Source: Streptomyces diastaticus subsp. diastaticus (lineage in GTDB: Bacteria > Actinomycetota > Actinomycetes > Streptomycetales > Streptomycetaceae). Taken from it: a stretch of 64,000 nucleotides of DNA. The stretch lies in NCBI RefSeq assembly GCF_011170125.1, contig NZ_BLLN01000005.1, positions 682,001 to 746,000 on the forward strand, written 5' to 3'. The notes below the pieces were generated by a model. It was not told the DNA's origin. It saw only the letters and a list, made by a program, of their open reading frames with translations, and searched no databases. Below, one piece after another: positions 14,783 to 40,861 of this stretch (positions are counted from its first letter, which is position 1; the number at the start of each line of letters is the position of its first letter). The translations under genes were made by a program, and so were the position numbers.

Positions 14783-16711
14783 TCACCCGGACCGGTGCGC
14801 GGGGCCGGCCTCGGGCGCGGGGCCGGCGGGCCGCTCGTCCTGGGCCTCGGCGAGGCCGATCCCCCGGCGGAAGGCCGCCATCAGCCCGGGATCGTGGCCG
14901 ACGTGGGGCAGTTCGCCGGTGCGGGCGACAGGGCCGTTCCGCAGTTGCGGGGCGAGGTGTTCCTGGGCGCGGCGGCGGGGCAGGGCGGGCCGCTCGGGCG
15001 GCCGGTCCTGGAGGGCGTTGCCGAGGACCAGGGGGGAGGCGGCATTGGCCTCGACGGTGTCGCGGTGCTCCGGCCGGATGCCGGGGCGGGCCTCGGCGGG
15101 GGTCGGCCGCTGCTCCCCGGCGTCACGGACCGGCAGCGTACGGGGCCCGGGCACGGCGGGGCGGACCGTCGGGGCGGGTTCCGGCGGCGCGGCGTGCTGC
15201 CTCCGGGACACCGTCTGACGGCGGGTGGCGCGGGTCGGGAGGGGCGGCGGGGTGCCCTCGGCGGGGGCGGACGACCGGGCCGGGGCCTCGCCCGGGACGG
15301 CCCGCACCGACGGTTCGGGGACGTGGTGCGGCGGGCTCGGCGCGGGCTCCTCGTCGACGGGGAACGGGTCCGCGGCGGGCGGGCCGAGCGGCTGCTGGGC
15401 CGCCGACCCGGCCGACGGCGCCTCGGGGCCCTCACCGGTGGGCGCCGGCACGCCGGTGAGGGCCGCCGGAGCGGCGGCGTCGGGGACGGGCTCGGGGGCG
15501 GCCGGCGCGTCGGGCACGGTACCGAGCAGGGTGGCGGGCAGGACCAGGACGGCCTGGGTGCCGCCGTAGATGTTGGACTGGAGGCGGACGGCGACGCCGT
15601 GGCGGCGTGCGAGGGTGGCGACCACGTACAGGCCGATGCGACCGTCCTGGAGGAGGCTGGCGACGTTGACCTGGTCGGGGTCGGCGAGCAGCTCGTTCAT
15701 CCGGCGCTGCTCGTCGCCGGGCATGCCGAGCCCGCGGTCCTCGACCTCGACGGCGACCCCGGCGGCGACGCGGCTGGCGCGCAGCAGCACCTGGGTGTGC
15801 GGGGCGGAGAACACGGTGGCGTTCTCGACCAGTTCGGCCAGCAGGTGGATGGTGTCGGCGACGGCGTGGCCGCGTACGTCGCCGTCGATCGGAGGTACCA
15901 GCTTGACCCGTGAGTACTGCTCGACCTCGGCGATGGCGGAGCGCAGCACCTCGGTCATGGAGACGGGCCTGCTCCACTGGCGGCGGGACATCGCACCGCC
16001 GAGGACCGCGAGGTTCTCGGCGTGGCGGCGGATGCGGGTGGAGAGGTGGTCGACGTGGAAGAGGCCCTTGAGCAGATCGGGGTCCTCGACCTGGTTCTCC
16101 AGTTCGTCCAGGAGCTGGATCTCGCGGTGGACCAGCGACTGGAGGCGGCGGGCGAGGTTGACGAAGACCTCGACCTTCTGTTCGCTGCCGGCCTGGCTGG
16201 AGAGCTGGGCCGCCTGGGACACCGCCTGCACGGCCATCCGGTGGGAGCGGTGGAGTTCTTCGCCGAGCAGGTCGAAGCCGTCCCCGCGCGGTGCGAGGGG
16301 ACGGGGCTCGGCGGTGGGCCGCTCGCCCCGACGCAGGGCGTCGACGACGTCGCGCAGCTCGGCCTGGTTGCGGACGCTGGTGCGGCGCAACTGCCCGGCC
16401 CGGTCCAGGATGTTCCGCGCGGTGCGGTCGGCGGCCACGGCCGCGACGGCGATCCCGGTGAGTGCCACGGCGGCGGCTCCGGCGAGGATCGCCCAGAGCA
16501 GGTGGGGGCTTCCGCCGCCGCCGGCCGACCGGAGCGCGTAGAGCACCGCGGCGGCGCCGCTGAGGGATACCGCGACGGCCGGAAGGACCGCGATCCGCAA
16601 CAGCTGAGGCCGTATGTGCGCCTCGGGGAGCTGCTGGGCGGCTCTGCCGTGCCGGCCGCCGCCCTCACGGCGGTCCGCCCGGGTGGCGGCCGGTGCGCGT
16701 AGTTGTGACAT
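14783..16711 (-). CDS. cvnA: Conservon sensor ATPase CvnA
   Basis: A 642-residue histidine-kinase-like membrane ATPase. Two membrane helices lie near the N-terminus (about residues 40-62 and 69-93) with only a short external loop, so it lacks the large nitrate/sensor domain of many CvnA proteins. A HAMP-like/coiled stretch follows, then an HATPase_c domain with LLAELVENATVFSAPHTQV (N box), EDRGLGMPGDE (G1) and DGRIGLYVVATLARRHGV (G2). The last 200 residues are Pro/Ala-rich and disordered. Start ATG at 16711 was chosen because the upstream extension is Arg/Pro-rich noise. It is the first gene of cvnA-B-C-D-GAF. Confidence 0.92.
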   Translation of the reverse strand: MSQLRAPAATRADRREGGGRHGRAAQQLPEAHIRPQLLRIAVLPAVAVSLSGAAAVLYALRSAGGGGSPHLLWAILAGAAAVALTGIAVAAVAADRTARNILDRAGQLRRTSVRNQAELRDVVDALRRGERPTAEPRPLAPRGDGFDLLGEELHRSHRMAVQAVSQAAQLSSQAGSEQKVEVFVNLARRLQSLVHREIQLLDELENQVEDPDLLKGLFHVDHLSTRIRRHAENLAVLGGAMSRRQWSRPVSMTEVLRSAIAEVEQYSRVKLVPPIDGDVRGHAVADTIHLLAELVENATVFSAPHTQVLLRASRVAAGVAVEVEDRGLGMPGDEQRRMNELLADPDQVNVASLLQDGRIGLYVVATLARRHGVAVRLQSNIYGGTQAVLVLPATLLGTVPDAPAAPEPVPDAAAPAALTGVPAPTGEGPEAPSAGSAAQQPLGPPAADPFPVDEEPAPSPPHHVPEPSVRAVPGEAPARSSAPAEGTPPPLPTRATRRQTVSRRQHAAPPEPAPTVRPAVPGPRTLPVRDAGEQRPTPAEARPGIRPEHRDTVEANAASPLVLGNALQDRPPERPALPRRRAQEHLAPQLRNGPVARTGELPHVGHDPGLMAAFRRGIGLAEAQDERPAGPAPEAGPAHRSG

Positions 16712-33216: not shown

Positions 33217-34014
33217 CTACTTGCCGGTGAACTTGTCGTACTCCTTGAGGACGTCCCCCGTCGGGCCGTCCATCCGCAGCTCCCCGTGTTCCAGCCAGAT
33301 CACCCGGTCGCAGGTGTCCCGGATGGACTTGTTGTTGTGGCTGACCAGGAAGACCGTGCCGGCCTCCTTGCGCAGCTCGCGGATGCGCGCCTCGGAGCGC
33401 TTCTGGAACTTCTTGTCGCCGGTGGCCAGCGCCTCGTCGATCATGAGGACGTCGTGGTCCTTGGCGGCGGCGATGGAGAACCGCAGCCGGGCCGCCATGC
33501 CCGAGGAGTAGGTGCGCATCGGCAGGGTGATGAAGTCGCCCTTCTCGTTGATCCCGGAGAAGTCGACGATGCCCTGGTAGCGCTCCCTGATCTGCTCACG
33601 GGTCATGCCCATGGCAAGGCCGCCGAGCATCACGTTCCGCTCGCCGGTCAGGTCGTTCATCAGCGCCGCGTTGACGCCGAGCAGCGAGGGCTGGCCGTCG
33701 GTGTAGACCTTGCCGCTCTCCGCGGGCAGCAGGCCGGCGACCGCCTTGAGCAGGGTCGACTTGCCCGAGCCGTTGGAGCCGATCAGCCCGATCGCCTCGC
33801 CCCGGTACGCGGTGAAGCTCACGCCCTTGACGGCGTGCACCTTGCGCACCCCGCGCTCCTCACCGCGCTTCAGGATGCGGCTGAGCGCGGCGGTGGCGCT
33901 GCCCTTGCCGCCCTTGGTGCCGTTGACCCGGTAGACGATGTGAAGGTCGTCCGCGATCACCGTGGGGGTGCGGGCACCGCTCCGGGCTCCCTGGTCCACG
34001 TCAGCCTCGGCCAT
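33217..34014 (-). CDS. ABC exporter ATPase, TagH/Wzt-like
   Basis: ATP-binding subunit, 265 residues, of a polysaccharide/teichoic-acid-type exporter. Walker A is GLIGSNGSGKSTLLKAV, the signature is YSSGMAARLRFS, and Walker B is VLMIDEALATGD, followed by the switch VFLVSHN. A long insertion before the Walker A (RILKRGEERGVRKVHAVKGVSF) matches TagH/RfbE proteins, but the C-terminal glycan-binding domain of Wzt is absent. Start ATG at 34014 has GGAGGAG upstream and overlaps the permease gene by 14 bp. It is the last gene of a seven-gene operon. Confidence 0.93.
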   Translation of the reverse strand: MAEADVDQGARSGARTPTVIADDLHIVYRVNGTKGGKGSATAALSRILKRGEERGVRKVHAVKGVSFTAYRGEAIGLIGSNGSGKSTLLKAVAGLLPAESGKVYTDGQPSLLGVNAALMNDLTGERNVMLGGLAMGMTREQIRERYQGIVDFSGINEKGDFITLPMRTYSSGMAARLRFSIAAAKDHDVLMIDEALATGDKKFQKRSEARIRELRKEAGTVFLVSHNNKSIRDTCDRVIWLEHGELRMDGPTGDVLKEYDKFTGK

Positions 34015-34942
34015 AGCGCTCCTCCGACTTCCAGAAGTAGACGAATCCGGCGGCGCCCGCGAGGAGCGCCCAGCCGAGGGCGAGGGCCCACACGTGCGAG
34101 GGCAGGTAGCCGGCGGTGTAGTCGTCGATCAGGGCGAACCGGACCAGGTCCATGTAGACGGCGGCCGGGTTCCACTGGAGGACGTCGGCCAGCCAGTGTG
34201 GCAGCTGGTCGTTGCGGGCGAGCATCGCCGGGATGGAGAACATGACGCCGGAGGCGTACATCCAGGTGCGCAGGATGAACGGCATGAGCTGGGCGAGGTC
34301 CGGGGTCCTGCTGCCGAGCCGGGCGAAGATCAGCGCGAGCCCGGTGTTGAAGACGAACTGGAGCGTCAGCGCCGGGACGATCAGCAGCCACGACCAGGTC
34401 GGGTACGAACCGAAGGCCATGACGATCGCGAACAGCACGATCATCGAGAAGAGCAGTTGCTGGAGCTGCTGGAGCGAGAAGGAGATCGGCAGCGAGGCCC
34501 GGGGGAAGTGCAGCGCCCGCACCAGACCGAGGTTGCCCGAGATGGAGCGGACGCCGGACATCACCGAGCTCTGGGTGAAGGTGAAGACGAAGACACCGGT
34601 GACCAGGAACGGCACGTAGACGTGCTCCGGGATGCCCCGCTTGGCGTTCAGCAGCATGCCGAAGATGAAGAAGTAGACCGCCGCGTTGAGCAGCGGCGTC
34701 ACCACCTGCCACAGCTGGCCGAGCTTCGCCTGGCTGTACTGGGCGGTGAGCTTGGCCTGCGAGAAGGCCAGGATGAAGTGGCGGCGGCCCCAGAGCTGCT
34801 TGACGTAGGTGAGCAGGCCGGGGCGTGCCCCGCTGACCGACAGACCGTACTTCTCCGCGAGCTGGGCCGGGGAGAGCCCGTCGTCGGGGGAGGGCGGAGC
34901 AGCACTCACCGCGACACCACCGTCCTGCGTTGTCTCACTCAC
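34001..34942 (-). CDS. ABC-2 exporter permease, TagG/Wzm-like
   Basis: Membrane subunit, 313 residues, with about six helices; residues 40-75 hold the amphipathic stretch LLTYVKQLWGRRHFILAFSQAKLTAQYSQAKLG that ABC-2 polysaccharide exporters use as interfacial gate helix. It pairs with the ATPase next door. The GTG start at 34942 is the first in-frame start after a run of weak ribosome-like sequence, so the N-terminus is uncertain. The two together should move a lipid-linked glycan or polymer across the membrane. Confidence 0.92.
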   Translation of the reverse strand: MSETTQDGGVAVSAAPPSPDDGLSPAQLAEKYGLSVSGARPGLLTYVKQLWGRRHFILAFSQAKLTAQYSQAKLGQLWQVVTPLLNAAVYFFIFGMLLNAKRGIPEHVYVPFLVTGVFVFTFTQSSVMSGVRSISGNLGLVRALHFPRASLPISFSLQQLQQLLFSMIVLFAIVMAFGSYPTWSWLLIVPALTLQFVFNTGLALIFARLGSRTPDLAQLMPFILRTWMYASGVMFSIPAMLARNDQLPHWLADVLQWNPAAVYMDLVRFALIDDYTAGYLPSHVWALALGWALLAGAAGFVYFWKSEERYGRG

Positions 34943-35058
34943 AAGGGGAAACTTTCGTCTTCGGGATACACCGGCGGACCCCCTGGCAGCACCGGGCGGC
35001 ACGGGGAGGTCCGCGGTCGGGGACCGGTACGGGCCGAATGCTCTCAGACCCGAGCTTG

Positions 35059-35946
35059 TCAGATGACGGGAGGTCGGCCCAGCCGGGTGAGCCGCCACAC
35101 GGTGCGCCACCTCATGGGCCGCCGGGGCCCCGCGGAGGAGGTCCAGCCCTCCTTGAAGCCACCGAACCACGCCTTCAGGGCGGGCCCCGAGGGCCGCCGC
35201 AGCAGGGTCAGCAGCAGCCAGCTGCCGAGGTAGACCGGGATGAGCGGCAGAGGCAGGTTGCGGCGGGCCAGCCAGACCCGATTGCGGGCCACCATGCGGT
35301 GGTAGACCGCGTGCCGGGAGGGGGCCGTCGTCGGGTGGTACAGCACCATGTCGGAGCGGTAGTCGATCTGCCATCCGGCGTTCAGCGCCCGCCAGGCCAG
35401 GTCGGTCTCCTCGTGGGCGTAGAAGAAGTCGGCGGGCAGCAGGCCCGCGTCGGCGAAGACGCGGGTGCGCACCGCGTTGGCGCCGCCGAGGAAGGTCGTC
35501 ACCCGCGAGGAGCGCATCGGGTCCGAGGCCCGCAGCCTCGGGACGTGCCGCCGCTGGGTCTCCCCCGTGTCGGGGTCGGCGATGCGGAAGGAGACGATGC
35601 CCAGCCGGGGGTCGGCCGAGAACGCCTGGCGGCACAGCTCGGCGGTGTCGGTGCGGGCGAGGAGGCCGTCGTCGTCGAGGAAGAGCAGGATGTCGACGTC
35701 GCGTCCGGCGGGGCCGAACATCTCGATGCCGACGTTCCGCCCGCCGGGGATGCCGAGGTTCTCGGGCAGCTCGGTGGTGCGCACGCCCTCGGGGACCTCG
35801 GGCACCGGGGCGCCGTTGCCGACCACGGCGATCCGGACCGGGTCGCCGTCCTGCTTGACGACCGAGTCGATGAGCGCGCGCAGCTCCTCGGGCCGGTTGC
35901 CCATGGTGATGATGACGGCGCCGACCGTCGGGGAGGTGCTGTTCAC
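35059..35946 (-). CDS. Family 2 glycosyltransferase
   Basis: GT-A-fold glycosyltransferase, 295 residues. The nucleotide-binding start VGAVIITMGNRPEELRALIDSVV is followed by LFLDDDG, the DxD-type metal/nucleotide site, and ANAVRTRVFADAGLLPADFFYAHEETDLAWRAL, the acceptor/ED motif. A C-terminal hydrophobic stretch (IPVYLGSWLLLTLL) may touch the membrane. Start GTG at 35946 has AGGTG upstream, five bases after the CDP-alcohol gene stop. It may add sugar to the phospho-polyol carrier. Sugar and linkage are unknown. Confidence 0.92.
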   Translation of the reverse strand: MNSTSPTVGAVIITMGNRPEELRALIDSVVKQDGDPVRIAVVGNGAPVPEVPEGVRTTELPENLGIPGGRNVGIEMFGPAGRDVDILLFLDDDGLLARTDTAELCRQAFSADPRLGIVSFRIADPDTGETQRRHVPRLRASDPMRSSRVTTFLGGANAVRTRVFADAGLLPADFFYAHEETDLAWRALNAGWQIDYRSDMVLYHPTTAPSRHAVYHRMVARNRVWLARRNLPLPLIPVYLGSWLLLTLLRRPSGPALKAWFGGFKEGWTSSAGPRRPMRWRTVWRLTRLGRPPVI

Positions 35947-35951
35947 GCCGG

Positions 35952-36731
35952 TCACCTCAGCCTGCTCGACACGAGGATGGACACCAGGTGCAGCAGGGTC
36001 TGCAACAGGGCGATGCCGGCCAGGACGGCGATGCCCAGGCGGGTGAAGAACAGGTCGCCGCGGATCTGGTCGGCCACCGCCAGCACGATGATCAGCAGCG
36101 ACGCCTCGATGCCGAGGACCAGGCGGTGGAACTTGAGTGCCGCGGCGGCCTTGCGGGCGAGGGCCACCTTGGCGGAGCGCGGCTCGGCGGCCGCCTCCTT
36201 GACCGGCGGCAGCCCGCCCTGGTGCCGGGCGACGCCGACCAGGTCGGTCTCGGCCTTGATCAGGATCGCGCCGAGCGCCGCCAGGGTGCCGAGGAACGCC
36301 CAGAGCCAGTCGATCCGCCCGCTCCCCCACAGGTCGGCGCCGCGCAGGCCGAGGCCGACCAGGACCGCGGCGTCGCACAGGTAGGCGCCGACGCGGTCCA
36401 GGTAGACACCGCCGAGGGAGAACTGCTTCTTCCAGCGGGCGACCTCGCCGTCCACGCAGTCCAGCAGCAGGTACAGCTGGACCATCAGGGCACCGAGCAC
36501 GGCGCCCCAGATGCCCGGCACCAGCAGCGCCGGGCAGGCCAGCACGCCGAAGACCGTCATCAGGTAGGTCAGCTGGTTGGGCGTGATGCGGGTGGGCACC
36601 ACGTACCGGTCGACCCGCAGCGAGATCTCCCGCATGTACAGGCGTCCCGCCCAGTGCTCACCGCTGCGCCGGTCCTTCACCCCGGCGGGGTGCACGACCG
36701 GGCGGAGTTCAGCTACCGATGGCCTTGGCAT
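35952..36731 (-). CDS. CDP-alcohol phosphotransferase with variant active site
   Basis: Membrane protein of 259 residues in the CDP-alcohol phosphatidyltransferase family, which moves a phospho-alcohol from CDP-alcohol to an acceptor alcohol. The motif reads DCVDGEVAR, then eight residues, then GVYLDRVGA. The family consensus D-X2-DG-X2-AR-X8-G-X3-D-X3-D would end in Asp, but an Ala occupies the last position. Six hydrophobic segments follow the usual pattern. Start ATG at 36731 overlaps the dehydrogenase gene by 23 bp; an inner start is possible. Substrate is unknown. Confidence 0.88.
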   Translation of the reverse strand: MPRPSVAELRPVVHPAGVKDRRSGEHWAGRLYMREISLRVDRYVVPTRITPNQLTYLMTVFGVLACPALLVPGIWGAVLGALMVQLYLLLDCVDGEVARWKKQFSLGGVYLDRVGAYLCDAAVLVGLGLRGADLWGSGRIDWLWAFLGTLAALGAILIKAETDLVGVARHQGGLPPVKEAAAEPRSAKVALARKAAAALKFHRLVLGIEASLLIIVLAVADQIRGDLFFTRLGIAVLAGIALLQTLLHLVSILVSSRLR

Positions 36732-37770
36732 AGTCGGCGTAAGCGTCCTTGATCTGGTCGGTGGAGAGGTTGAGGTGCTCCAGGATCGTGTACCGGCCCG
36801 GCCGAGTCTGCGGAGCGAACTCCACGGCCTGGACGAACTCGTCCACGGTGAAACCGATGTCCGCCGGCACCACGGGCAGCCCGTGCCGCCGCAGGACCTC
36901 GGCCATCTGCGCCGACTGGGCGGGCGCCCCGCGCAGGTGCATCGCGAACGCCGCCCCCATCCCGCACTGCTCGCCGTGGCTGGCGGCGCGCTTGGGGAAG
37001 AGCAGGTCGAAGGCGTGGTTGATCTCGTGGCACGCGCCGGAGGCGGGGCGGCTGTCGCCCGCCACCGACATGGAGATGCCGGTGAGCACCAGTCCCTCGG
37101 CCAGGACCTGGAGGAAGGAGTCGTCGCCGACGTCCCCCGGGTGGCGGAGCACCGCCTCGCCGGCCTGGCGGGCCATGGCGGCCGCCAGGCCGTCGATGTC
37201 CTCGCCGCGGACCCGGGCCGAGAGCTCCCAGTCCGCGACGGCGGAGATGTTCGACAGGGCGTCCCCGATGCCCGAGCGCACGAACCGCGCCGGGGCCTCG
37301 CGGATGATGTCCAGGTCGATGACGACCCCGATGGGGTTGGGCACCCCGTACGACCCGCGGCCCGCGTCGTTGTCCAGGGTGGCGACCGGCGAGCAGAGGC
37401 CGTCGTGCGACAGGTTGGTCGCGACGGCGACCAGCGGCAGGCCGATGCGGGCCGCGGCGAACTTGGCGCAGTCGATGATCTTGCCGCCGCCGAGGCCGAC
37501 GACCGCGTCGTAGCGGCCCGACTTCATGGCGTCGGCCAGCTTGACCGCGTCGTCCAGGGTGCCGCCGCCCACCTCGTACCAGCTCGCCCCGGGCAGCGCC
37601 GGGGAGAGCCGCTCGCGCAGGCGGGCGCCCGAGCCTCCGCTGATCGCTATCGCGAGTTTGCCGGAGGAGGAGATCCGCTGGTCGGCGAGGACCGCGGCGA
37701 GGTCGTTGAGAGCGCCGCGCCGGATGTCGACGACGAGGGGCGAGGGGATCAGGCGCGTCAGTACCGGCAC
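36709..37770 (-). CDS. Glycerol-1-phosphate-dehydrogenase-like (AraM/EgsA) enzyme
   Basis: Iron-containing-ADH-fold enzyme, 353 residues, closest by eye to sn-glycerol-1-phosphate dehydrogenases. NAD(P) is bound by VVGLGGGKIIDCAKFAA, and metal ligands are suggested by VATNLSHDGLCSP, GACHEINHAFD and ASHGEQCGMG. These enzymes reduce dihydroxyacetone phosphate to glycerol-1-phosphate, the archaeal-type backbone, also used by a few bacteria (AraM). Start GTG at 37770 follows AGGGAG and overlaps the nucleotidyltransferase gene by 13 bp. A polyol phosphate other than G1P cannot be excluded. Confidence 0.85.
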   Translation of the reverse strand: MPVLTRLIPSPLVVDIRRGALNDLAAVLADQRISSSGKLAIAISGGSGARLRERLSPALPGASWYEVGGGTLDDAVKLADAMKSGRYDAVVGLGGGKIIDCAKFAAARIGLPLVAVATNLSHDGLCSPVATLDNDAGRGSYGVPNPIGVVIDLDIIREAPARFVRSGIGDALSNISAVADWELSARVRGEDIDGLAAAMARQAGEAVLRHPGDVGDDSFLQVLAEGLVLTGISMSVAGDSRPASGACHEINHAFDLLFPKRAASHGEQCGMGAAFAMHLRGAPAQSAQMAEVLRRHGLPVVPADIGFTVDEFVQAVEFAPQTRPGRYTILEHLNLSTDQIKDAYADYAKAIGS

Positions 37771-38510
37771 GCGATCTCCCTGCCCTTGGCGAGGTCGTCG
37801 TGGTTGTCGATCTCGACCCAGCTGACCTCACCGATGGGGGCCACGTCGATCTTGAAACCGCGGTTGACGAGCTCCTGGTAGCCGTCCTCGTAGTACAGCT
37901 GCGGGTCGCGCTCGAAGGTGGTGCGCAGCGCGTCGGCCAGCTCCTCGGCCGCCTCGCCCTCGATGAGGGTGACACCGATGTACTCGCCGGTGGCCTCGGA
38001 CGGGTCCATCAGCTTGGTGATGCGCTGGACGCCCTTGTCCGCGTCGACGACGACCTTCATCTCCTCGTCGGCGAGGTTCTTCACCGTGTCGAGGGCGAGG
38101 ATGATCTTCCGGCCCTCGCCGCGCGCGGCGAGCAGCGTCTTCTCGACGGAGACGGGGTGGACGGTGTCGCCGTTGGCGAGGATCACGCCGCCCTTGAGGG
38201 CCTCACGGCCGCACCACAGGGAGTAGGCGTTGTTCCACTCCTCGGCCTTGTCGTTGTCGATCAGCGTGATCTTCAGGCCGTACTTGGCCTCCAGCTCGGC
38301 CTGGCGCTCGTAGACGGCCTCCTTGCGGTAGCCGACGATGACGCCGACCTCCTCCAGGCCGATCTCGGCGAAGTTGCCGAGGGTGAGGTCGAGGACGGTC
38401 AGGCTCTCCTCGTCACCCTCGGGACCCACCGGCACCAGGGCCTTGGGCAGGGTGTCGGTGTAGGGACGCAGACGCCGTCCGGCGCCGGCCGCCAGCACGA
38501 GGCCGATCAT
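37758..38510 (-). CDS. Nucleotidyltransferase (sugar/choline-phosphate type)
   Basis: Rossmann-like NTP transferase, 250 residues. The start MIGLVLAAGAGRRLRPYTDTLPKALVPVG is the signature nucleotide-binding loop (GXGXRL...PK), and LANGDTV holds the metal-binding Asp. The LicC/IPCT-like size suggests it makes a CDP- or NDP-alcohol or sugar, the donor for the CDP-alcohol phosphotransferases beside it. Its ATG overlaps the stop of the upstream large gene (ATGA) and has GGAG nearby. It is followed by the G1P-dehydrogenase-like gene. Confidence 0.9.
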   Translation of the reverse strand: MIGLVLAAGAGRRLRPYTDTLPKALVPVGPEGDEESLTVLDLTLGNFAEIGLEEVGVIVGYRKEAVYERQAELEAKYGLKITLIDNDKAEEWNNAYSLWCGREALKGGVILANGDTVHPVSVEKTLLAARGEGRKIILALDTVKNLADEEMKVVVDADKGVQRITKLMDPSEATGEYIGVTLIEGEAAEELADALRTTFERDPQLYYEDGYQELVNRGFKIDVAPIGEVSWVEIDNHDDLAKGREIACRY

Positions 38511-40312
38511 GCGGGTTCTCCTTCATCGTGTACGGCGGGTGCTCCTGCGGAGACCCAGAAACGGATGCTCTCGACGAGCACCACGAGGGCCACGACCACG
38601 GCGAGGACCGTGAGCGCGACGGTGAAACCTGAGGGGGCCAGCAGCGAGGCGGCCGTCACGAGGAGGACGCGGCCCTCGTGCCCGCCGGTTGCGCGGACCA
38701 GCGCCCGGGGCGGCGCGCCGCTGCCGCCGCGGATGCGGTAGACCGTGTCGTAGTGATGGTAGGCGACCGCCGCGACCAGCCCGAAGGCCGCCGGAAGAGC
38801 CCCGGAGTCGGCCGTGCGGGACGCGAGCAGCAGGATCACGCCGTACTCGGCGGCCCGGAAGAAGGGCGGCACCAGCCAGTCCAGCGCGCCGGTGAGCGGC
38901 CGGGAGACGGCGAGCGCGGAGCACAGGACGTAGCCCACGGCGCCGAGCAGCGGGCCGGCCGAACCGGACGGGGTGAGGGCGGTCACCGCGATGAGGACCG
39001 CGCCGCCGAGCGCCGCCACGGCCGGGGCCGGGAACCTGGCGAGGGAGCGCAGGCGCGGGACGAGGGCCTCGGTGAGCGGGCCGCTGTCGGCGAGGTCGGC
39101 GAGGGCCCGGGCGGCTCGGTCGGTGCGCCGGGCCTTGCGGGCCAGCGACCGCAGCAGGCGGCCGGCGGTGGTGTAGCAGGCGGCCAGCACGCAGCCGGCC
39201 AGCAGGACGACGAAGGTGATCCGGGGCGTGGTGACGGCCGTGAGGACGGCGATCAGCGCCCAGCGCTCGCCGATGGGCAGCACGACCATGCGGCGCAGCC
39301 ACACCGTCCAGCCGACGCTGTCGAGGCGGCCGGAGAGGGAGGCGGTGGGGCTGGTGTTGGCCTCGGCGTCGTGGTTCGCCTCGTTGAAGGAGAAGTCCAC
39401 GACGTGGCGGCAGGTCTGGAGGACCATCGCGCCGAGCGCCAGCGCCCACACGTCGTCCCCGCCGCGCGCCGCGCCGAGGGCGAGCCCCGCGTAGTACGCG
39501 TACTCCTTGGCCCGGTCGAAGGTGGCGTCGAGCCACGCACCGAGGGTGGAGTACTGGAGCGAGTAGCGGGCGAGCTGGCCGTCGGTGCAGTCCAGCACGA
39601 AGGAGAAGAGGAGGAGCAGACCGGCGGCGACGAAGCCGCCCCGGGTGCCGGTGGCCGCGCAGCCCGCCGCGATCAGCGCGGTGAGCAGCGAGGCGGTGGT
39701 CACCTGGTTCGGAGTGAGACCGCGCCGGGCGCACCAGCGGGCCAGGTACCGCGAGTACGGGCTGACGCAGTGGGTGGTGAAGAACCCGTCGCGGGACTTC
39801 ACGGCGGTCCGCAGCCGGATCGCCTCGTCGTCGACGGCGGCGACGGCCTGCCGGGCCTCGCTGCGCTCCTGCGGTGCACGCGGGACGCGGGCGACGAGGT
39901 CGCCGAGCTCGGGCCGGTGCACGGCGACCCCCTCCGCCTCCAGGGCGCCGGCCAGGCGGTCGGGCAGGCCGGTGCCGGTGCGCAGTGCGGTGTCGCCGCC
40001 TGGAGCGGGCGCCGCGGCCTCGGACTCCAGGGCCCGGACGAGTGCGGCGCGGGAGGGGTCCTGCACGGTGACGGCGCCGGGCACGGCGCCGGCCGGGAAG
40101 CGGGGGTCGGTCAGACCCAGGCGCAGAGCGTGCGGGTGGCCGACGAAGCTCGCGTCGACCAGGGCGACGCGGCCGGCGGGCGGCGCGTCACGGAGCAGGG
40201 CGACTGCCTCGGCGGCGTCGGAGGCGGTCCGCACGTCGAAGCCCAGCGTCCGCAGTTCGCCCTCGATCGGCGACCCGGGGACCGGCTGACCGGTGACGAT
40301 GGCGGTCGACAG
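38507..40312 (-). CDS. Large CDP-alcohol phosphotransferase with DUF5941-like ends
   Basis: A 601-residue protein, first gene of the export operon. Residues 1-150 are a soluble N-terminal domain; the middle carries a complete CDP-alcohol phosphotransferase motif, DCTDGQLAR-X8-GAWLDATFD, with several membrane helices on both sides; the C-terminal part is helical membrane domain. The start is probably CTG at 40312: it gives a protein beginning STAIVTGQPV and sits nine bases after AAGGAG, and an in-frame TGA lies just before it. The next in-frame start, GTG at 40234, has no ribosome site. Its last bases overlap the nucleotidyltransferase. Confidence 0.85.
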   Translation of the reverse strand: MSTAIVTGQPVPGSPIEGELRTLGFDVRTASDAAEAVALLRDAPPAGRVALVDASFVGHPHALRLGLTDPRFPAGAVPGAVTVQDPSRAALVRALESEAAAPAPGGDTALRTGTGLPDRLAGALEAEGVAVHRPELGDLVARVPRAPQERSEARQAVAAVDDEAIRLRTAVKSRDGFFTTHCVSPYSRYLARWCARRGLTPNQVTTASLLTALIAAGCAATGTRGGFVAAGLLLLFSFVLDCTDGQLARYSLQYSTLGAWLDATFDRAKEYAYYAGLALGAARGGDDVWALALGAMVLQTCRHVVDFSFNEANHDAEANTSPTASLSGRLDSVGWTVWLRRMVVLPIGERWALIAVLTAVTTPRITFVVLLAGCVLAACYTTAGRLLRSLARKARRTDRAARALADLADSGPLTEALVPRLRSLARFPAPAVAALGGAVLIAVTALTPSGSAGPLLGAVGYVLCSALAVSRPLTGALDWLVPPFFRAAEYGVILLLASRTADSGALPAAFGLVAAVAYHHYDTVYRIRGGSGAPPRALVRATGGHEGRVLLVTAASLLAPSGFTVALTVLAVVVALVVLVESIRFWVSAGAPAVHDEGEPA

Positions 40313-40861
40313 ACGAACTCACTCCTTGGGTGCCGGTGCGGTCCGCGCCGGACAGCTCGGGTGCCGGTGACAACGGCCTGGCGGCACGTCGGCTGAGGCT
40401 ATCGGACGGTGGGGAGCCCGCGTTCACCGCCCGTTCGGTACCTGTTCGCATCCCGTGCGGGGGCACGCAGGGCGGGCGCGGCCTGGTGCGCGCGGCTTCC
40501 CTGGAGGGGGGCGCGGCGCGGGGCCGCCGCCATCATGGTCGATCAACGGCCCGGCCGACAAACCGCGTCCCGCCCTCCGTCGCTGGTCGCGGCGCATGGC
40601 CCCGCTTCGGTGGCGTTCGCCCGTTCTCTCCGCACACCGGCCGGAAGGCACGATTCCGCCAGGCGGCGGCAGGGGTGCCACGAACGGGTCGGACGGGCCC
40701 TTCGAAGGGCGTCCGGCGCGCTGACCTGCCAGGAGTTTTCGCAGGTCAGGGGGAATGACAACGGTATTCAGCGCCGTGTTGCCGGATACCCCCCACCCGT
40801 AGTTCACTGTGGTCGGCCGACGGCATCGCCGTGCAGACCGACGAGGCGGAGGACACCTCCC
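40313..40861. other. Intergenic region between export operon and zitB
   Basis: About 550 bp separating divergent genes. Next to the left end is the AAGGAG site of the CDP-alcohol gene. Near 40722-40747 is an inverted repeat (GACCTGC...GCAGGTC, arms of seven), and at 40756-40770 a Zur-box-like site. Long frames here are not protein-like. Confidence 0.5.
40756..40770 (+). promoter_or_regulatory. Zur-box-like site upstream of zitB
   Basis: TGACAACGGTATTCA matches 11 of 15 bases of the Zur consensus as I recall it (TGAAAATGATTTTCA), with dyad arms GAAT/ATTC. It lies about 92 bp upstream of the zitB start. In S. coelicolor zinc-bound Zur is known to activate zitB, the orthologous exporter gene, from upstream sites. 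Confidence 0.6.

Follow-up and report, generated by a model that had tools for sequence, protein, structure and literature searches.

We describe a stretch of 64,000 nucleotides from Streptomyces diastaticus subsp. diastaticus (NCBI RefSeq assembly GCF_011170125.1, contig NZ_BLLN01000005.1, positions 682,001 to 746,000), referred to as the window, and within it seven minus-strand genes, designated A to G, that run in this order from position 40312 down to 33217. Our preferred reading, which we hold with somewhat more confidence than doubt, is that these genes form a teichoic-acid-type module with its own supply of a polyol activated with cytidine diphosphate (CDP) and with a polymer-type exporter, and that its product is meant for the cell wall. 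The enzymes probably depart from the textbook wall-polymer route, and the product is probably a phosphate-containing wall polymer or the lipid-linked start of one. Gene content, its conservation, the wall genes found next to it in relatives, changes in catalytic motifs and a conserved upstream element were observed; all of the chemistry is what we infer.

Conservation of the operon and its cell-wall neighbors

For Streptomyces, the 80 best of 556 relatives were compared. At 73 of these loci the seven genes are complete and in order, and the remaining 7 loci end at contig edges; 64 of the 73 print as A to G and 9 print B before A because the stop-to-stop frames overlap. With the full ordered set at 73 of 80 loci the operon is not a product of chance, and the comparison of Streptomyces neighborhoods that a sequence-only reading of this DNA had proposed did bring out its conservation. 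The domain DUF5941, which is part of protein A, was found in 181 of 181 sampled Streptomyces genomes (a row count), in 185 of the 197 genomes sampled from the order and in 51 of the 197 sampled from the class, 16 of these 51 being Streptomyces. Gene C was present in 61 of 61 sampled Streptomyces genomes.

Outside Streptomyces we read 35 loci (20 plus 15) in stretches of up to 20 kb, some of them shorter, and protein comparison found D at 22, G at 21, F at 19, E at 18, B at 15 and C at 14 of them. An LCP gene lies within 10 kb of 22 of the 38 DUF5941 places outside Streptomyces, against 0.69 expected under uniform placement; this count treats related genomes as independent and comes from whole-genome LCP searches of 31 non-Streptomyces genomes, with 4 of the 35 that carry DUF5941 left out. 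Beside the module at the 35 loci there are LCP matches (16 loci), IspD/TarI-like cytidylyltransferases (11), GDPD phosphodiesterases (8), UDP-glucose dehydrogenases (5), matches that extend far into the TagF domain (4) and a TarS-linker glycosyltransferase (1), counts that include the loci that supplied the queries. At locus L135 the main TagF match covers only the glycosyltransferase part, and it is left out of the four. Pfam confirms LCP, GDPD, IspD, PF04464 and the TarS-linker glycosyltransferase in the representatives scanned. The sequence-only reading made no mention of this wall-polymer neighborhood in other actinobacteria.

That reading had suggested that the product may sit in a hopanoid-rich membrane or wall. 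Downstream of the operon in the window are two squalene/phytoene synthase genes, a polyprenyl synthase gene and a squalene-hopene cyclase gene, and matches to hpnC and hpnD stand beside 64 of 64 full-length Streptomyces loci, but neither gene is matched anywhere in the stretches read at the 35 loci outside Streptomyces, and we rejected the hopanoid link for this reason. Because of this absence and the LCP genes at 22 of 38 places, the lasting partner of the module in relatives is the cell wall, not hopanoids. On its upstream side the operon has a cation-efflux gene, which diverges from it, and a NUDIX gene.

Elsewhere in the window's genome there are 10 LCP matches, 9 of them over the cut-off, and three TagF-like genes about 1.7 Mb from the operon. 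Five LCP genes lie within 10 kb of each other (G000 C5:2492568-2501967, locus L148), about 73 kb from the three TagF-like genes. Glycerol teichoic acids can occur in Streptomyces walls.

Proteins of the operon and the proposed pathway

The Pfam and NCBIfam classes agree with the seven-gene minus-strand set and the enzyme classes named from sequence alone, and no NCBIfam match listed for the seven proteins reaches its curated cut-off (for G, 25 of 180 matches). The genes had also been called overlapping, which is correct for A/B (4 bases), B/C (13 bases), C/D (23 bases) and F/G (14 bases) but not for D and E, separated by 5 bases, or E and F, separated by 116 bases. A scan for promoters and terminators is uninformative: it gave no promoter-like site, and its single terminator-like site, which falls within gene F, compares with 1.4 expected.

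Gene C (36709..37770, minus strand, 353 amino acids, Pfam Fe-ADH_2) encodes an oxidoreductase resembling glycerol-1-phosphate dehydrogenase (G1PDH), an assignment made in the sequence-only reading and upheld by the NCBIfam and PDB relatives. It scores 237 bits against the NCBIfam G1PDH model and 93 bits against the glycerol dehydrogenase models. Compared with solved chains, its catalytic half matches 3ce9 at 145.7 bits, archaeal G1PDHs at up to 138.4 bits and other glycerol dehydrogenases at up to 71 bits; we take 3ce9 to be AraM-like. The blocks DGxxSP and SRPxSGxxH occur in 11 of 11 aligned sequences and HGE in 10 of 11, with one HGD; they are also present in the G1PDH chain 4rgq and presumably hold metal and substrate. 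Judged by its family and these conserved blocks, C would reduce dihydroxyacetone phosphate to sn-glycerol-1-phosphate.

Gene B (37758..38510, minus strand, 250 amino acids, Pfam NTP_transferase) encodes a LicC-like nucleotidyltransferase, the proposed CDP-polyol maker. The nearest solved relatives are LicC, which is a cytidine triphosphate (CTP):phosphocholine cytidylyltransferase, the nucleotidyltransferase 4jd0 and PntC, with IPCT also listed. The CDP-alcohol logic proposed for the operon from its sequence is borne out by the nearness of B to LicC and by the whole phosphotransferase motif of A. B may couple sn-glycerol-1-phosphate to cytidine monophosphate (CMP) from CTP, giving CDP-sn-1-glycerol. 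Provided that C is a genuine G1PDH and that its product goes to B, the donor is perhaps CDP-sn-1-glycerol, a proposal in which we place less confidence than in the wall-directed module as such. A reductase and cytidylyltransferase pair that makes a CDP-polyol is known from ribitol teichoic acid synthesis in the form of TarJ and TarI; C and B would be a pair of the same kind but come from the Fe-ADH_2/G1PDH and LicC-like families. All 14 of the non-Streptomyces loci with C also have B, which fits a reductase and a cytidylyltransferase acting on one substrate as TarJ and TarI do. Neither the window's genome, with a partial best match of 34.7 bits, nor any of 61 Streptomyces genomes, the best of which reaches 70 of the 165 bits required, yielded a TagD over the cut-off. 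For IspD the window's genome has one strong match and a weak one that barely exceeds the cut-off. Since there is no TagD over the cut-off and one strong IspD, B is the strongest candidate for a CDP-polyol synthase found in this genome.

Gene A (38507..40312, minus strand) encodes 601 amino acids from a CTG start at 40312 that has AAGGAG nine bases 5' to it; the next in-frame ATG, GTG or TTG is the GTG at 40234, and the codon at the aligned start in the 80 Streptomyces loci is TTG in 38, CTG in 26 and CGG in 16. The protein carries PF01066 (over the cut-off) and PF19365 (DUF5941). In the AlphaFold2 (AF2) model, structure comparison assigns residues 1 to about 160 to a degenerate cytidylyltransferase-like domain. 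Residues about 174-392 are the CDP-alcohol phosphotransferase, with an intact motif D1xxD2GxxAR...GxxxD3xxxD4, and residues about 394-601, which are DUF5941, are modeled as a second, motif-less CDP-alcohol phosphotransferase fold. Asp4 is kept in 239 of 239 homologs among the matches listed (no more than 120 per list) and in 26 of 26 distant copies that score best as A at more than 100 bits. A resembles archaeal IPCT-DIPPS and AF2299, ranked first by Foldseek with the A model, in having a soluble N-terminal cytidylyltransferase-like domain fused to a CDP-alcohol phosphotransferase, but it differs from them in lacking the LAAG..PK signature in this domain, in having DUF5941 as a third domain and in belonging to an operon with an exporter and a reductase. 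In the VIA-align list for the whole-chain model CHPT1/CEPT1 came first, with 11 to 12% identity, and A would share with them an active unit followed by a second, motif-less one, while unlike them it is bacterial, has the extra soluble domain and reads GAWLDATFD, the eukaryotic ExxDHxxD being absent. The likeness to CEPT1 rests on the whole-chain model, because a search with DUF5941 by itself did not list CHPT1/CEPT1.

For DUF5941 we propose the identity of a CDP-alcohol phosphotransferase fold, with six helices in the model. We also sought proof in its sequence, which the comparison of its profile with that of D did not support (E 0.21, not significant, with shallow profiles), and Pfam gave no PF01066 match in two separate DUF5941 proteins scanned. 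Both additional domains of A, the cytidylyltransferase-like one and DUF5941, are apparently dead. Two side observations come from family f19. Seven of its loci (L124, L153, L155, L157-L160) form a second DUF5941 locus class with conserved flanks, in which a canonical phosphotransferase A and a DUF5941 of its own are accompanied by at most a weak match to G, and B, C, D, E and F were not detected by protein comparison. In another group (L125-L129, L161, L162) A is split and the Asp motif was not found in the phosphotransferase piece in 7 of 7 loci, with D keeping D1-D3 plus a His; A in this split-gene lineage may be an enzyme decaying to a pseudoenzyme.

Gene D (35952..36731, minus strand, 259 amino acids) is a CDP-alcohol phosphotransferase homolog that matches PF01066 over the cut-off despite the missing fourth motif aspartate and so falls short of the full motif. 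It keeps D1-D3. The D4 position is Ala in 120 of 120 homologs (the best 120 of 2157) and in 74 of 76 Streptomyces loci, the other 2 having His, and the distant copies, 22 of 22, all have His. The two CDP-alcohol phosphotransferases named in the sequence-only reading are thus confirmed in that both carry PF01066 and A has the full motif, but D is without the fourth Asp. In Mycobacterium tuberculosis PgsA1 this residue binds Mg-2 and is presumed to act as the base (PMC6506517), and in Xenopus CHPT1 an Ala at any of the four Asp positions leaves less than 20% activity (PMC10182977). From these precedents, D would be either a weak or dead partner or an enzyme acting on an acceptor that needs no base. 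We also considered a heterodimer of A and D, since the motif of A is lost in one lineage and the fourth Asp of D in all copies examined.

Gene E (35059..35946, minus strand, 295 amino acids) encodes a family 2 glycosyltransferase (Glycos_transf_2, PF00535, E 2.7e-8) for which no NCBIfam match was found at 1e-10. Gene F (34001..34942, minus strand, 313 amino acids, Pfam ABC2_membrane), which was scanned with Pfam as a longer frame and separately by itself, encodes an ABC-2 permease of TagG/Wzm type, and gene G (33217..34014, minus strand, 265 amino acids, Pfam ABC_tran) encodes an ATPase of the ATP-binding cassette (ABC) type resembling TagH/Wzt. Over all NCBIfam families the best match of G is TagH (E 6.5e-53) and its third is galactan Wzt (153 of 400 bits); the best permease match of F is the mycobacterial galactan exporter Wzm (65.5 of 380 bits). 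The pair had been described from sequence as a TagG/TagH-type exporter, and these best matches of glycan or polymer type agree with it. The mycobacterial galactan Wzm/Wzt system is like F and G in these matches and unlike them in that the scores fall far below the cut-offs and that neither Pfam nor NCBIfam finds a galactan polymerase among the seven genes. A second close homolog of permease F was not found in the window's genome (next match E 0.32).

Taken as a pathway, A, whose membrane part is modeled as cholinephosphotransferase-like, would follow B and C by taking phosphoglycerol from CDP and placing it on a hydroxyl group of a lipid-linked acceptor; the motif for this is observed, and the acceptor would be a lipid-linked glycan or a lipid at the inner face of the membrane. 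D may carry out a second transfer or act as a partner of A, E would put a sugar on the product, and F with G would export it. LCP ligases, which adjoin the module in many other actinobacteria and are located elsewhere in this genome, would then join the product to peptidoglycan.

A PHO-box-like element upstream of gene A

Between the divergent genes, 110 bases upstream of the A start, lies a PHO-box-like element (40422..40454, plus strand) of three 11-base direct repeats beginning with GTTC. It reads GTTCACCGCCC GTTCGGTACCT GTTCGCATCCC on the strand opposite to A and points away from A. The consensus GTTCACCGnCCGTTCA, derived from the same 80 related loci on which it was counted, occurs, when up to 2 mismatches are allowed, upstream of A in 76 of 80 loci and at neither of two control places in any of the 80. 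A GTTC-7-GTTC pair is found upstream of A in 53 of the 80 loci against 0.38 expected from single-base shuffles, and the base frequencies of the 80 loci suggest a third, weaker repeat. The PHO-box pattern with at most 3 mismatches has 3 matches in the window against 2.1 expected, and a single window proves nothing; the case for a PHO box is made by the position of the element, its further repeat and its conservation, not by the match count in the window. The sole other GTTC-7-GTTC pair in the window is at 15821.

PHO boxes have an 11-base period. We take SCO6753 to lie inside the operon, a placement by gene numbering, with the hopanoid genes starting at SCO6759. The PhoP motif has been given as GTTCA, and SCO6753 is described as a predicted PhoP target that is altered in a phoP mutant, with PHO box or dyad evidence (PMC4173021). 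The element looks like a PhoP box and suggests that the operon may be under the control of PhoP and the phosphate supply.

Alternative products and comparison with known systems

Several findings weigh against a wall-directed module. LCP and TagF-like genes are both absent from the window, in a search that did not include TagO-like genes, and no LCP gene was found within 10 kb of 16 of the 38 DUF5941 places outside Streptomyces. B was not found near A at 20 of the 35 loci and C at 21 of them, some of these being short. The scores also leave room for other assignments: G is below the TagH cut-off with 179.8 of 320 bits; C is below the NCBIfam G1PDH cut-off (PRK00843, E 2.5e-70, 237 of 413 bits), and its best solved relative, 3ce9, carries the depositors' label of glycerol dehydrogenase; the best NCBIfam match of B is AglF, a uridylyltransferase that uses uridine triphosphate (57.8 of 400 bits). 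D is without one catalytic residue, and the modeled CEPT1-like fold of A would also fit a plain phospholipid product. Finally, in 25 of 61 Streptomyces genomes, the window's not among them, the TagD model finds a full-length match with 58-70 bits, possibly a divergent TagD.

The product could instead be a membrane phosphoglycolipid. A, being cholinephosphotransferase-like, would attach a phospho-polyol, sn-glycerol-1-phosphate or another, to diacylglycerol or to a glycolipid, E would glycosylate it and the ABC pair would flip it outward. We take this seriously and think it unlikely, as the LCP, IspD-like and TagF-like neighbors in other actinobacteria and the polymer-type best matches of the exporter (TagH, galactan Wzt/Wzm) speak against it. 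B might also activate some other polyol or an inositol phosphate, with glycerol-1-phosphate from C serving as the acceptor in the style of di-myo-inositol-phosphate synthesis to give a polyol-phospho-glycerol head; IPCT-DIPPS is among the nearest solved relatives of both A and D, and many loci have A and D with B and C not nearby. The constant company of B wherever C occurs and the lack of an inositol enzyme by Pfam among the seven genes make this improbable in our view, and synthesis of a compatible solute of DIPPS type is not favored because the operon has an exporter and a glycosyltransferase. Decoration or export of a hopanoid, or synthesis of an archaeal-type ether lipid, ideas that go back to the sequence-only reading, we regard as very improbable: the hopanoid genes accompany the operon in Streptomyces but not outside it, and no PcrB/GGGPS match was found in the window's genome, so the archaeal-type prenyl ether backbone was rejected.

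The wall-directed module shares with the Tag/Tar wall teichoic acid pathway the CDP-polyol logic, the TagGH-type exporter and, in other actinobacteria, LCP, TarI-like and TagF-like neighbors. It differs from this pathway in having a LicC-like nucleotidyltransferase and a G1PDH-like reductase with no TagD over the cut-off, membrane CDP-alcohol phosphotransferases where Tag/Tar uses TagB/TagF, and, if C is a G1PDH, sn-1 instead of sn-3 glycerol. In Bifidobacterium bifidum a tag cluster combines two tagB genes with tagGH and an IspD-like gene (PMC12286996); it is a more classical actinobacterial cluster than the operon described here.

A wider proposal, which we rate as quite unlikely when all its parts are taken together, is that Streptomyces and relatives make a wall polymer or linkage unit of sn-1 glycerol phosphate, in mirror image to the usual wall teichoic acid, and that they do so from CDP-sn-1-glycerol by way of the membrane CDP-alcohol phosphotransferases A and D, tuned by PhoP. 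As parts of this same unlikely whole, A would act on hydroxyls as the bacterial equivalent of CEPT1 and carry a dead partner within its own chain, and D would prime the chain on a phosphate acceptor such as polyprenyl phosphate, having lost its base because a phosphate acceptor needs no deprotonation. To our knowledge, CDP-sn-1-glycerol is familiar from racemic commercial CDP-glycerol and not as a natural precursor. In Bacillus subtilis the wall teichoic acid is sn-3, from CDP-glycerol, and the lipoteichoic acid is sn-1, from phosphatidylglycerol (PMC7086022). CDP-glycerol in vivo has been reported as sn-3, but when given racemic CDP-glycerol in vitro, two capsule polymerases used both enantiomers (PMC5974469), which makes it conceivable that a polymerase would take the sn-1 form. 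A limited literature search found no report of an sn-1 polymer made from a CDP donor in a living cell, and our literature search found no paper on polyglycerophosphate lipoteichoic acid in Streptomyces.

Published work already anticipates the operon in part, as far as synteny is concerned. In a 2026 study of 929 Streptomyces genomes, CDP-alcohol phosphotransferase, glycosyltransferase and nucleotidyltransferase clusters were syntenic with crtB, tagH, tagG and araM, and the region was named teichoic-acid-associated in passages that give no product or functional test (PMC13118837). The statement made from sequence alone that no product had been described thus stands as far as the product goes, for which we found none in the literature, but the region already had this name. 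CglA, a Streptomyces wall glycopolymer ligase, matters for cell shape, in passages that do not treat the operon (PMC11481543), and no mention of DUF5941 was found in the literature searched. What is new here is the PHO-box-like element, gene D without the fourth Asp and DUF5941 modeled as a second phosphotransferase fold; the sequence-only reading mentioned neither the element, nor the residue missing from D, nor the two additional domains of A that seem dead.

Streptomyces is a main source of antibiotics and its wall is poorly known, and the marker gene of the module, for which no tested function was found in the literature, is in every sampled Streptomyces genome. The model gives DUF5941 a proposed identity, and D is a natural catalytic-motif variant of a large enzyme family. 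The operon offers a concrete answer to how polyols may be activated for wall polymers in genomes with no TagD over the cut-off, and it would bring 'archaeal' glycerol-1-phosphate chemistry together with the wall of a bacterium. Through its regulation the operon may also link the wall with phosphate, which itself bears on antibiotic production.

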